Shown: positions 23,123 through 27,363 of the stretch, piece by piece
How positions within the stretch are numbered: the first letter of the stretch is position 1
Layout: every line of letters begins with the position of its first letter
Source of the DNA: Rhizobium sp. CCGE531
GTDB taxonomy: Bacteria; Pseudomonadota; Alphaproteobacteria; Rhizobiales; Rhizobiaceae
DNA length: 64,000 nt
Direction of reading: 5' to 3'
Assembly (NCBI RefSeq): GCF_003627795.1
Contig: NZ_CP032684.1
Location: 2,147,001-2,211,000, forward strand
The notes under the pieces: generated by a model
Seen by the model: only the letters and a program-made list of their open reading frames with translations
The model's database searches: none
Told to the model about the DNA's origin: nothing
Made by a program: the position numbers and the translations under genes

Positions 23123-23887
23123 ATGAACCGTCGCCGCCGTATTTACGAGGGCAAGGCCAAGATCCTTTACGAAGGGCCTGAGCCTGGCACGCTGATCCAG
23201 TTCTTCAAGGACGACGCCACTGCCTTCAACAAGAAGAAGCACGAAGTCATCGATGGCAAGGGTGTTCTGAACAATCGCATCTGCGAGTACATTTTCAGCC
23301 ATCTGAACAAGATCGGCATTCCCACGCACTTCATCCGCCGCCTCAACATGCGCGAGCAGCTGATCAAGGAAGTGGAGATGATCCCGCTCGAGATCGTCGT
23401 GCGCAACGTCGCCGCCGGCTCGCTCTCCAAGCGCCTCGGTATCGAGGAAGGCGTGGTGCTGCCGCGCTCGATCATCGAGTTCTATTACAAGTCCGACTCG
23501 CTCGAAGACCCGATGGTCTCCGAGGAGCACATTACGGCTTTCGGCTGGGCCAATCCGGCCGAACTCGACGACATCATGGCGCTTGCCATCCGCGTCAACG
23601 ACTTCATGACCGGCCTTTTCCTCGGCGTCGGCATCCAGCTCGTCGATTTCAAGATCGAATGCGGCCGCCTCTTCGAAGGCGACATGATGCGCATCATCCT
23701 CGCGGACGAAATCTCGCCGGATAGCTGCCGCCTCTGGGACATCGAAACCCGCGAGAAGATGGACAAGGATCGTTTCCGCCGCGACTTGGGCGGCTTGCTG
23801 GAAGCCTATTCCGAAGTGGCGCGCCGCCTCGGCATCATCAATGAAAACGAACCCGTGCGCGGCACGGGCCCGGTTCTCGTCAAGTAA
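23123..23887 (+). CDS. purC: Phosphoribosylaminoimidazole-succinocarboxamide synthase (SAICAR synthetase)
   Basis: 254 residues. Joins aspartate to CAIR using ATP in purine synthesis. Signatures: [14 protein letters not shown] at the N-terminus, [13 protein letters not shown] near residue 90, and [10 protein letters not shown] near residue 173. The ribosome site directly before ATG 23123 is weak (AGAGAACAATACC). First gene of a purC-purS-kptA-purQ run. Confidence 0.95.
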
Positions 23888-23904
23888 GTTCAGAAAGGAC
23901 AATC

Positions 23905-24147
23905 GTGATCAAGGCTCGTGTAACCGTCACGCTGAAGAACGGCGTTCTCGATCCGCAGGGCAAGGCAATCGAAGGCGCGCTCGGCGCACTCGGCTTTGAC
24001 GGCGTCCATCAGGTTCGCCAGGGCAAGGTCTTCGATCTCGAGCTGGAAGGCACCGACAAGGCCAAGGCGGAGGCAGACCTCAAGGCCATGTGCGAAAAGC
24101 TTCTCGCCAATACGGTGATCGAGAACTTCAGCATTTCGATCGACTGA
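23905..24147 (+). CDS. purS: FGAM synthase subunit PurS
   Basis: 80 residues, the small structural subunit that bridges PurL and PurQ in the three-part formylglycinamidine ribonucleotide synthase. Typical sequence: TLKNGVLDPQGKAIEGALG near the start and LANTVIENFSI at the end. Starts with GTG at 23905 behind AAAGGA. It is 17 bp after purC and 8 bp before kptA. Confidence 0.94.
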   Translation: MIKARVTVTLKNGVLDPQGKAIEGALGALGFDGVHQVRQGKVFDLELEGTDKAKAEADLKAMCEKLLANTVIENFSISID

Positions 24148-24155
24148 GAGCGTTG

Positions 24156-24713
24156 ATGGTATCCACCAAACTTCAGACCGAAGTATCCAAATTTATGAGC
24201 TACGTGCTGAGGCATGCACCGCACGAGGCTGGATTGGTCCTGGATTCGGAAGGATGGGTGCCTTTCAACGATCTAAGAAAGGCGGTCCTTGATCGCTTCG
24301 ATGTCACCGAAGCCGATATTCTCGAAGTGATCGAGTCCAATCCGAAGAAACGCTTCACTTTGTTGGATCACCGTATCCGTGCAGCGCAGGGCCATAGTGT
24401 CGTGGTTGATCTGGCGTTGAGCCCGGCAACGCCGCCATCGAAGCTGTTTCACGGAACATCGCTCGAAAGCTGGCCGACGATCCAAAGTTCGGGGCTGAAG
24501 AAGATGCAACGTCATCACGTTCACCTCTCCCCCGATATCGAAACGGCCAAAGTCGTCGCGACGAGACGCAAGGGTAACTACATCATCCTTGAAATCGATG
24601 CGACCCGTATGCACGCGGAAGGTCATTCTTTCTTTGTCAGTGACAATGGAGTATGGCTCACCGATCACGTTCCAAGCCAGTATCTTTCGCCTCTCTCGGG
24701 ACCAGCATCATGA
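24156..24713 (+). CDS. kptA: RNA 2'-phosphotransferase, Tpt1/KptA family
   Basis: 185 residues. Tpt1/KptA removes an internal RNA 2'-phosphate using NAD+. Family landmarks are complete: YVLRHAP (catalytic Arg19-His20), RAAQGHS near residue 73, LFHGTS near residue 96, and RHHVHLS near residue 118. It sits between purS (8 bp upstream) and purQ (ATGA overlap). Hand count gives about 53% GC over 24241-24660 against about 62% in neighbouring purQ, a sign of acquisition. Bacteria lack the tRNA splicing that yields this phosphate, so its natural substrate is unclear. The alternative upstream ATG at 24090 lies inside purS. Confidence 0.92.
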
Positions 24714-25381
24714 AATCAGCAGTCGTCCAACTCCCCGGCCTCAATCGTGATCGCGACATGATCGCGGCACTGACCAAGATCTCCGGTCATGCGCCGGTGA
24801 CGGTGTGGCAGACCGAGACCGCGATCCCGGATGTCGACCTGATCGTCATTCCCGGCGGCTTCTCCTATGGTGATTACCTGCGCTGCGGCGCGATCGCCGC
24901 CCGCATGCCGATCATGCAGGCGATCAAGGACAAGGCCGACAAGGGCGTCAAGGTTCTCGGCGTCTGCAACGGTTTCCAGATCCTGCTGGAAGCCGGCATG
25001 CTGCCCGGCGCGCTGATGCGCAACGCCTCGCTGAAATTCGTCTGCCGCGAAGTGAAGTTGGAAGTCGTCAACGCCGAGACGGATTTCACGGCTGCCTACG
25101 CCAAGGGCCAGGTCATCCGCAGCCCGGTAGCCCACCACGACGGCAACTATTTCGCCGACGCCGCAACGCTGAAGACGATCGAGGACAATGGCCAGGTGGT
25201 CTTCCGCTATGCGGAAGGTACCAACCCGAACGGCTCCGTCAACGACATCGCCGGCCTGATCAACACCAAGGGCAATGTGCTTGGCATGATGCCGCATCCG
25301 GAAAATCTGATCGAGGCAGCCCATGGCGGCAACGATGGACGCGGCCTCTTCGCCTCCGCACTCGGCGTCATCGCAGCCTGA
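24710..25381 (+). CDS. purQ: FGAM synthase glutaminase subunit PurQ
   Basis: 223-residue class I glutamine amidotransferase that supplies ammonia to PurL. The nucleophile elbow GVCNGFQ lies near residue 86 (catalytic Cys), and the His/Glu of the triad are in MMPHPENL near residue 197. ATG at 24710 overlaps the kptA stop by 4 bases (ATGA), so translation of purQ here depends on, or is coupled to, kptA. Confidence 0.95.
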
Positions 25382-25993: not shown

Positions 25994-26524
25994 ATGGACA
26001 GGTTTGTCATTCTTTCAGGCTGCTCCGGCGGCGGAAAATCCACCTTGCTGGAGGCGCTCAGGCGTCGTGGTCACCACGTCGTCGAAGAGCCGGGGCGACG
26101 CATCGTCGTTGAGGAACTAGCAGGCGACGGCTCTGCTTTGCCCTGGGTCGACGCATCGGCATTTGCGCGCCGCGCGATCGCCATGTCGCTCGCCGATCGC
26201 AAGGAAGCGGCGGCGATTCCAGGCACCGTCTTCTTCGACAGGGGATTGATCGACGCCGCATCGGCGCTCGAGCATTTGACGAATGAGCCCGTGCTGACTT
26301 CGCTCAGCCAATTGCATCGCTACAACAGCCACGTCTTCCTGACCCCGCCCTGGCCGGAGATATATGCCGGCGACCGCGAACGGCGGCACGATTATGCAGC
26401 GGCGGTCGCCGAATACGAACGGCTAAGCGCCGTCTATCCCGCGCTCGGCTACGAAGCCCATGTGCTGCCGAAAATCGGCGTCGAGGAACGCGCGGATTTC
26501 GTTCATTCCGTTCTGGGGCTCTAG
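25994..26524 (+). CDS. AAA (ATP/GTP-binding) family protein
   Basis: 176 residues resembling the AAA_28 type of small P-loop proteins: Walker A SGCSGGGKST near residue 8, then VVEEPGRRIVVEEL, FFDRGLIDAAS near residue 78, and FLTPPWPEIYAGDRERRH near residue 115. Probably a nucleotide-dependent kinase-like protein; the substrate is unknown. The stop codon TAG uses the TA target duplication plus the first base of the downstream IS. Before insertion the same position read CTC-TAA, so the protein length is unchanged. Confidence 0.82.
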   Translation: MDRFVILSGCSGGGKSTLLEALRRRGHHVVEEPGRRIVVEELAGDGSALPWVDASAFARRAIAMSLADRKEAAAIPGTVFFDRGLIDAASALEHLTNEPVLTSLSQLHRYNSHVFLTPPWPEIYAGDRERRHDYAAAVAEYERLSAVYPALGYEAHVLPKIGVEERADFVHSVLGL

Positions 26525-27290
26525 GTCACCGACTCATAAGATCGTAGCCAGATACGAATTGAGGCGAGCTGGATAGATGCGAGGAAGTTGTCGTCGCGTT
26601 TGTCATATCGTGTTGCGATGGCCCGGAAGTGTTTGAGTTTGTTGAAGAACCGCTCGACAGCGTTGCGTTGTTTGTAGAGCCGTGAGCTGAAGGCAGGAAT
26701 ATTGACCCTGTTTGGCATGGGACGGATACAGCCCCATGCTCCACGTGCTTTGAGGTCTTGTCGCAGCCTGTCGCTATCATAAGCGCGATCAGCCAGAAGT
26801 ATTTGACCGGGCCCGATGGTCGCAAACATATCGGTCGCCGAGCGTCCGTCATGGGCCTGTCCGGCTGTCAGCTTTAAGCGGATCGGTCGGCCATCGGCAT
26901 CGACAAGAGCATGGATTTTGGTTGTCAGCCCGCCGCGCGAGCGACCCATGCAACCGGATCGCTCGTCTTTTTTTGACCGTTGGCAGCATGTTGGTGAACG
27001 CGGATCGACGAGCTGTCGATCATCTGGATGTCGCCATCGTAAGCTTCTGATATTGCATCGAGAATACGTGCCCAATGCCCCGCATGACGCCATCGGTTAA
27101 AGCGGTTGACACAGGTCGTATAAGGGCCATAGCGCGCGGGAATATCCGCCCACGGCGCACCAGTTCTCAGCCGCCAGAAGATCCCATTCAATACGCGTCG
27201 GTCATCAACGCGGGCCTTACCACGAACCTTTGTCGGCAGAAGGGGTTCGATCACCGACCATTCGAAATCCGTCAAATCAAAGCGCGCCAT
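26521..27290 (-). CDS. IS5-family transposase, two frames joined by programmed -1 frameshift
   Basis: OrfA (27290 to 26925) carries the N-terminal part (FDLTDFEWSVIEPLLP, RTGAPWADIPARYG, and the first catalytic Asp in IQMIDSSSI). OrfB, open from 27093 to 26521, carries the rest of the DDE domain (GGLTTKIHALVDADGRP, LLADRAYDSD with the second Asp, NAVERFFNKLKHFRAIATRYD with the Glu). The frames differ by -1 and overlap at a slippery A-AAA-AAG (seven A on the minus strand, 26968-26974), as in IS427-group elements. The stop codon is completed by the TA target duplication and flanking base. Confidence 0.88.
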
Positions 27291-27363
27291 CTCTGCCTCC
27301 AAGCCTGACAGACAGAGAATCACAAATCATTCAAATCCAAAACTATTTTATGGGTATGTGACC
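26524..27363 (-). mobile_element. IS5-family (IS427-group-like) insertion sequence, 840 bp
   Basis: Ends are imperfect inverted repeats: GGTCACCGACTCATAA at 26524-26539 and, on the other strand from 27363, GGTCACATACCCATAA (13 of 16 matched). Both ends are flanked by TA (26522-26523 and 27364-27365), a 2-bp target duplication. Transposase frames and frameshift site are intact, so the element looks functional and recently inserted. Confidence 0.88.

Follow-up and report, generated by a model that had tools for sequence, protein, structure and literature searches.

The purC-purS-kptA-purQ locus

The window, by which we mean the whole 64,000-nt stretch of Rhizobium sp. CCGE531 DNA that was analyzed, carries on its plus strand the genes for a SAICAR synthetase, purC (23123–23887; PF01259, 270.6 bits, above the family cut-off), and for a subunit of FGAM synthase, purS, which has a GTG start (23905–24147; PF02700, NF004630). 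After the purS stop at 24147 and a spacer of 8 bp lies kptA (24156–24713), an intact gene for a 185-residue protein of the Tpt1/KptA family of NAD-dependent RNA 2'-phosphotransferases (PF01885, NF002013). Its stop codon overlaps, within the sequence ATGA (24710–24713), the start of purQ (24710–25381; NF002957, 336.9 bits), which encodes the glutaminase subunit of FGAM synthase. Two further plus-strand features are nested in the 3' end of kptA: a conserved hairpin (24621–24659; GGUCAU-UC-UUUC-U-UUGUC-AGU-GACAA-U-GGAG-U-AUGGCU(C)), recognized by conservation, covariation and our covariance model R1, and a second synonymously frozen patch, TATCTTTCG, at kptA codons 176–178 (24681–24689).

The initial annotation had described purS, 8 bp, a complete Tpt1/KptA gene and an ATGA overlap with purQ, and the sequence and profile matches bear out both the identities and the coordinates, PurS and PurQ passing their family thresholds as PurC and KptA do. 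Its estimate of approximately 53% GC in kptA against approximately 62% in purQ was equally sound, as we measured 53.1% for 24241–24660, 52.9% for the whole of kptA and 62.2% for purQ. GC at third codon positions (GC3) was 0.586 in kptA versus 0.775–0.835 in purC, purS and purQ.

Scans of 23850–24800 found no terminator and no promoter of the sigma-70-like type, to which the promoter scan was confined. Between 22850 and 25600, no Rfam family matched at the hairpin, and the sole Rfam match with E ≤ 1, on the minus strand within purQ (E 0.74), was taken as chance. Elsewhere in the window, an IS4/5-type transposase is present at 26521–27323 as two overlapping minus-strand ORFs (PF13340, PF01609).

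KptA has the family features of a Tpt1 enzyme

The profile matches of KptA were well above their thresholds (PF01885, 173.9 bits, curated cut-off 26; NF002013, 263.7 bits, cut-off 231), and a profile search of all 7.14 Mb of the genome gave kptA as its sole PF01885 match. The protein is homologous over its full length to solved Tpt1 chains, of which 7kw8 (E 1.8e-42) and 6e3a (E 8.8e-34) are the closest relatives. The active-site tetrad of CthTpt1 is Arg18, His19, Arg68 and Arg121 (PMC6333775), and an alignment to 7kw8 and 6e3a, the latter taken as CthTpt1 on the basis of its residue numbering, allowed us to place by eye the same Arg-His-Arg-Arg tetrad in KptA at R19, H20, R66 and R119. kptA is a genuine gene and not a chance reading frame.

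An earlier study reports that bacterial Tpt1s strip 2'-phosphates from RNA in vitro and complement a yeast tpt1 deletion, and describes the natural substrate of bacterial Tpt1 as an open question in 2019 (PMC6333775). An archaeal KptA is reported to erase Up47 of tRNA, with similar results given for E. coli KptA in E. coli carrying an archaeal kinase (PMC9095486), and the KptA of S. coelicolor is reported to ADP-ribosylate 5'-phosphate RNA ends (PMC6582358). By homology, the predicted activity of the window's KptA is most likely the removal of RNA 2'-phosphates using NAD+, and it may also ADP-ribosylate 5'-phosphate RNA ends. As an enzyme, KptA adds one more member to an established family, and its gene arrangement is an old one. 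A search of the open PMC literature found no paper mentioning both KptA and purQ.

kptA is an old and frequently lost resident of the junction in Rhizobium

The genus set comprised 148 genomes. In one of them (G110, 82% complete) neither purS nor purQ was matched, so that 147 junctions could be compared. KptA matches were identified in 67 of the 148 genomes: 60 have a full-length kptA between purS and purQ, one has a partial kptA there (G036), four have a 3' fragment there, which we counted as scars, and two (G128 and G132) have an unlinked copy with 44% identity. The loci of this second kind of kptA (L276 and L277) are off the pur operon, and the purS-purQ junctions of both genomes are coil-type.

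The 147 junctions could be sorted into 60 with full kptA, 33 deletion scars, one partial gene (L103) and 53 that were coil-type (described below) or shorter. All 87 junctions lacking a full gene were fetched, as were the flanks of 45 of the 60 full genes (tblastn and reading frame), the other 15 being assigned by coordinates only. The scars are spacers of 105–107 nt that consist of the purS stop followed directly by the final ~85 nt of kptA, and this 3' end is also kept in four truncated copies (L087, L088, L089 and L103). In the window's own clade, which accounts for 40 of the 132 loci in a tree of purC, purS and purQ, there were 33 scars, five full kptA genes scattered among them and two junctions with neither. 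The presence or absence of kptA changed at least 12 times on this tree, and the four junction states at least 15 times versus a mean of 61 when shuffled; these counts are minima on that tree and not on a species tree, since the pur locus itself may have been exchanged and some nodes are weakly supported. Both loss and allele exchange may have contributed to this history. The gene order purC-purS-kptA-purQ was seen in all 22 records with at least 65% KptA identity (21 named Rhizobium and one "Rhizobiales bacterium"), and no pur genes were near kptA in eight weaker records (four planctomycetes and four Shewanella).

These data bear on the suggestion that kptA was inserted recently and horizontally into this genome, giving a KptA responsive to NAD or purine status. 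The GC content of kptA, 52.9% against 62.2% in purQ, and its GC3 gap would fit such an event, and the match with its neighbors in GC and codon use that would have told against the initial annotation is not seen. However, the two kptA-bearing clades share a low GC3, averaging 0.586 and 0.639, indicating that low GC is a lasting trait and no sign of recent arrival here. Likewise, an insertion peculiar to this genome cannot be squared with 60 full genes and 33 scars among the 147 junctions, or with linked kptA in eight more genera. When the junction is compared across Rhizobium genomes, as the initial annotation had proposed, the shared placement that would count against its reading largely holds, and in the window's clade the scar predominates. 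The recency is therefore refuted, and we consider the suggestion as a whole highly improbable. Our genome comparisons revealed nothing tying KptA to NAD or purine levels.

Between the two kptA-bearing clades, dS for kptA was 1.47 and 1.94 in two genome pairs, roughly threefold higher than the 0.45–0.58 for purC, purS and purQ. Together with the lasting low GC3, this fits alleles that are older than their flanks or were imported; alternatively, the high dS may stem from weaker codon bias. The best reading is that kptA is an old, dispensable and often lost resident of the purS-purQ site in Rhizobium and some relatives.

Linked and unlinked kptA beyond the genus

A sample of 297 genomes of the family contained 30 with a KptA match, four in the genus and 26 outside it. 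In 13 of those 26, representing eight genera, kptA was beside purQ or purS (three as 3' relics), and in the other 13 it was unlinked within the 1.5-kb flanks seen. A sample of the order (347 genomes, 32 with a match) gave 27 matches outside the family, of which 26 were fetched, and kptA was pur-linked in four of them, from two genera: it lies between purC and purS in L190–L192, and a broken kptA follows purS in L214. In a sample of the class (289 genomes, ten with a match), none of the eight matches outside the order was pur-linked.

We built a tree of 96 KptA proteins, rooted at its midpoint, from which L214 and the relics were omitted as too incomplete. In it, 57 of the 58 pur-linked proteins (45 from the genus) clustered together (SH 0.87), the remaining one (L073) being placed just outside with weak support. 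The cluster spans two families (f1 and f50), and L214, absent from the tree, comes from a third. The window's KptA belongs to this pur-linked group, as its gene is beside purC, purS and purQ and the protein clusters with the linked KptAs.

Not all kptA genes in the order have purine neighbors. At L193 and L197, from other families, kptA precedes rtcB and the first part of rtcA, and its product falls outside the pur-linked cluster. Pfam searches of L193 matched these two neighbors to PF01139 and PF01137, respectively, and in the class sample a distant RtcB-like match (29%) is beside kptA at L283. We considered RtcB as a partner of KptA in RNA repair in Rhizobium, where PF01139 matches were found in 48 of 148 genomes and the window's genome had none. 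RtcB proteins of the ~424-residue type were identified in 24 of the 60 genomes with full kptA versus 6 of the remaining 88 (p 1.5e-6), and any PF01139 match in 32 of 60 versus 16 of 88 (p 1.3e-5), all by hand count. Within the kptA-rich clade, to which 15 kptA-bearing genomes not on the tree were assigned by KptA identity, the counts were 22 of 55 versus 3 of 9 (p 1), and within the window's clade 2 of 5 versus 3 of 35 (p 0.11). Based on these within-clade comparisons, clade membership explains most of the association and we rejected RtcB as a partner.

The purS-purQ interval has other occupants

The initial annotation had assumed that purS and purQ are usually adjacent. This was so for part of the 60 junctions fetched from other genera of the family, 20 of which had the two genes within 60 nt; the gap was larger in 37, and in three purS was not found in the fetched stretch. 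Within the genus, 41 coil-type spacers have a length near 276 nt, and 30 of them contain an open frame of at least 75 codons whose TGA overlaps the purQ ATG. This coil ORF, of ~85 residues with a predicted coiled coil (L157, L164, L121 and others), reached no Pfam cut-off. It was matched, in some cases partially, in 27 of the 60 junctions outside the genus. In genus g84, purS, the coil ORF and kptA occur together (L064, L070 and L072), and L089 has the coil ORF plus a kptA relic. Other occupants are an antisense tryptophan 2,3-dioxygenase gene (PF03301) in two genera (L257 and L270) and ORFs with no Pfam family (L247 and L271).

Ten further spacers, either without a gene or of the short coil type, were folded singly and gave z-scores of -0.28 to -2.76 against mononucleotide shuffles, which is too weak to claim spacer hairpins as a general rule. 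Each of four short gene-less spacers (L091, L099, L102 and L126) folds into a hairpin that is unrelated, with z-scores of -1.5 to -2.8 against mononucleotide shuffles.

The variety of genes in this interval favors the idea of a permissive slot over that of a purine-specific function. A stronger version of this idea is that the interval simply tolerates genes ahead of the purQ start and that kptA is a passenger unconnected with purines, kept only as long as its enzyme is useful. Besides the other occupants, this version draws on the kptA genes of the family that are unlinked and on those beside rtcB and rtcA. Against it, the linked KptAs cluster across two families and the overlap with purQ is fixed, although neither fact demands a link to purine metabolism. 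We regard it as a serious contender that narrowly misses an even chance. It is compatible with the explanation we prefer, as neither claims a purine function for KptA, but it denies the nested hairpin a role in purQ expression.

Selection on KptA and its coupling to purQ

In 12 genome pairs, the dN/dS of KptA was 0.096–0.178, indicating that it is kept as a protein, and in nine of the pairs this was above the values of all three pur genes. The gap between purS and kptA varies from 8 to 48 nt (in three loci the kptA ATG is the second aligned codon), while the kptA-purQ overlap is 4 nt in all 45 intact loci examined. This constancy makes translational coupling of kptA and purQ likely, as the initial annotation had found plausible.

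Synonymous codons are nearly frozen close to the 3' end of kptA

Between the two clades, kptA codons 157–178 hardly vary at the nucleotide level. In this stretch, 13 of the 16 codons for conserved residues were invariant, which we defined as one codon being used in 97% or more of sequences, versus 9 of 88 elsewhere in the gene (Fisher p=1.7e-8). This was equaled in none of 10,000 permutations, and the best window before codon 150 had 5 of 16. As controls, the best 16-codon windows of PurQ, PurC and PurS had 5, 10 and 12 invariant codons, respectively, so that PurS comes close. The coil ORF, whose codon diversity was 0.14 in its last 15 codons and 0.31–0.43 before, is a weak control since it has just six conserved codons upstream of the last 30. 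Among the codons kept in the frozen stretch are three that are rare among their synonyms in purC, purS and purQ (GGA 1.3%, GTA 1.8% and CCA 1.4%), and others are common in the neighboring genes.

No other 36-nt window of kptA is as conserved as the core at 24624–24659, whose mean pairwise identity between clades was 0.917 versus 0.797 for the next non-overlapping window. In 24-nt bins of clade consensus sequences the element scored 0.92, a value equaled by the bin at -174 to -151. From the element down to purQ, the sequence scored 0.71–0.79 in such bins with gaps allowed, and 0.415 over the final 18 codon-alignment columns when each gap was scored as a mismatch. The element therefore exceeds its downstream sequence by both measures, with a smaller contrast in the bins, and the result depends on the alignment. 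The binned values also make a conversion tract extending from purQ unlikely, as far as identity can tell.

Outside the genus, part of this element, GTA-TGG-CTC, was present in 7 of 11 purQ-adjacent linked loci (three of six genera, by hand count), in none of six loci that were linked but not purQ-adjacent and in none of 35 unlinked loci (7/11 vs 0/35, p 6e-6); this count was drawn up after the motif had been seen and treats loci of the same genus as independent. The purQ-adjacent kptA genes of the three other genera do not have the motif.

One potential cause of the freezing is overlapping protein coding, in that the ATG at 24653, contained in GTA-TGG-CTC, might start an N-terminally extended PurQ. 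In all 45 full genes this ATG shares the purQ reading frame, which is open from there into purQ in 43, and the motif tracks purQ adjacency in three other genera. The scars argue otherwise: ATGGCT is kept in 32 of 33 but is in frame with purQ in only two, and 13 of the scar frames end at the purQ ATGA and 17 elsewhere. In addition, the invariance starts 29 nt upstream of the ATG. Based on these observations, we consider an extended PurQ quite unlikely.

The frozen stretch forms a hairpin that is retained in scars

Among the 31 distinct scar sequences, a structure of 21 base pairs was formed in 91.2% of cells (pairs by sequences), versus 40–45% in slid controls. There were 23 cells with double changes versus 11.5 in shuffled alignments, and the covariation score was 0.201 versus 0.166, neither value being reached in 500 shuffles. 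The measures least prone to relatedness were weaker, namely six pairs with double changes versus 4.4 (29 of 500 shuffles) and 21 pair types versus 18.4 (16 of 500). The outer pairs 8–49 and 6–51 fail in 25 and 11 of the 31 scars. The scar alleles thus have the covarying pairs across homologues expected of a cis RNA element. In 26 distinct full-gene sequences, a 16-pair core was paired in 96.2% of cells and was nearly invariant, with no covariation.

When folded alone, the window's element had a z-score of -2.15 and a leguminosarum-type one -2.10, and five selected scars ranged from -3.8 to -6.4, such that pairing looks stronger once the coding constraint is gone. In a context of 141 nt, the best fold of the window kept the inner stem and not the outer (z +1.18), and two scars in 115- and 131-nt contexts kept the hairpin (z -1.59 and -3.81). 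Whole scar spacers (five tested) gave z-scores of -0.47 to -2.98 against mononucleotide shuffles, so that not all were unusually stable.

Model R1 matched the window at 24612–24667 with 63.1 bits, the window's sequence being one of the 57 from which it was built. Of 2055 candidates in the genome 150 were scored, and this was the only one of those with E<1. The model had no match in the 53 coil-type loci and only weak ones in g84 and g71 among other genera (E 5e-6 to 0.8; L089 5e-6, L064 0.0017). Given this genus-level range, purQ has no general need for the hairpin.

The same stretch could instead act as DNA, either as a protein-binding palindrome (TTGTC-N3-GACAA) or as an internal promoter. 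The inner dyad is perfect in the window, as a palindromic site would be. However, our scan covers sigma-70-like promoters, of which there was none, and no second copy of the hairpin was detected in the genome within the scope given above. Moreover, variation in the scar dyad is compensatory (CG and UA pairs at columns 26–32, with both sides changed in seven sequences), which suits RNA better than DNA. A DNA site is accordingly unlikely in our estimation.

If kptA were a mere passenger, neither the freezing of this stretch nor its persistence after deletion would be expected. We tentatively propose a structured control element of purQ that lies inside the last 85 coding bases of kptA, predates the loss events, was kept after deletion as a free-standing intercistronic hairpin and was stabilized by compensating changes, such that selection on purQ would outlast the host gene, though we are slightly more inclined to doubt this proposal than to accept it.

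A model for the locus and comparison with known systems

Overall, the explanation we favor, with moderate confidence, is that a canonical KptA is a long-standing and dispensable member of the purC-purS-kptA-purQ row, read from a single transcript and co-translated with purQ through the ATGA, and that its gene has a cis RNA hairpin for purQ nested within it. Under this model, the site in Rhizobium would have switched many times between alleles with full kptA, a deletion scar or the small coiled-coil ORF. The hairpin in the last ~85 nt of kptA would serve purQ expression, which would explain why synonymous sites are frozen and why the hairpin is kept when kptA is deleted. In the intact allele, we speculate that ribosomes finishing kptA would open the hairpin just before restarting at the ATGA, and in the scar allele it would stand free between the cistrons. 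In either form the hairpin probably tunes purQ.

The presence and absence of kptA dozens of times at one site offers matched strains for tracing a 2'-phosphorylated RNA substrate. The nested hairpin that outlives its gene is, in our opinion, the part most worth following, as it offers a testable example of regulatory RNA overlapping protein-coding sequence and persisting after that sequence is lost.

In its enzyme, the locus resembles the characterized Tpt1/KptA proteins (6e3a and 7kw8), with which the window's KptA shares full-length homology and the Arg-His-Arg-Arg tetrad; it differs from them in the purQ neighbor of its gene and in the extra nucleotide constraint at the 3' end. The kptA-rtcB-rtcA clusters of L193 and L197 encode the same enzyme family, but their KptA is outside the pur-linked group and the window's genome is without a PF01139 match. 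Intercistronic mRNA hairpins occur in bacterial operons. The scar allele, with its stem-loop between two cistrons, is similar to these, whereas in the intact allele the hairpin is embedded in the coding sequence of another, third gene.
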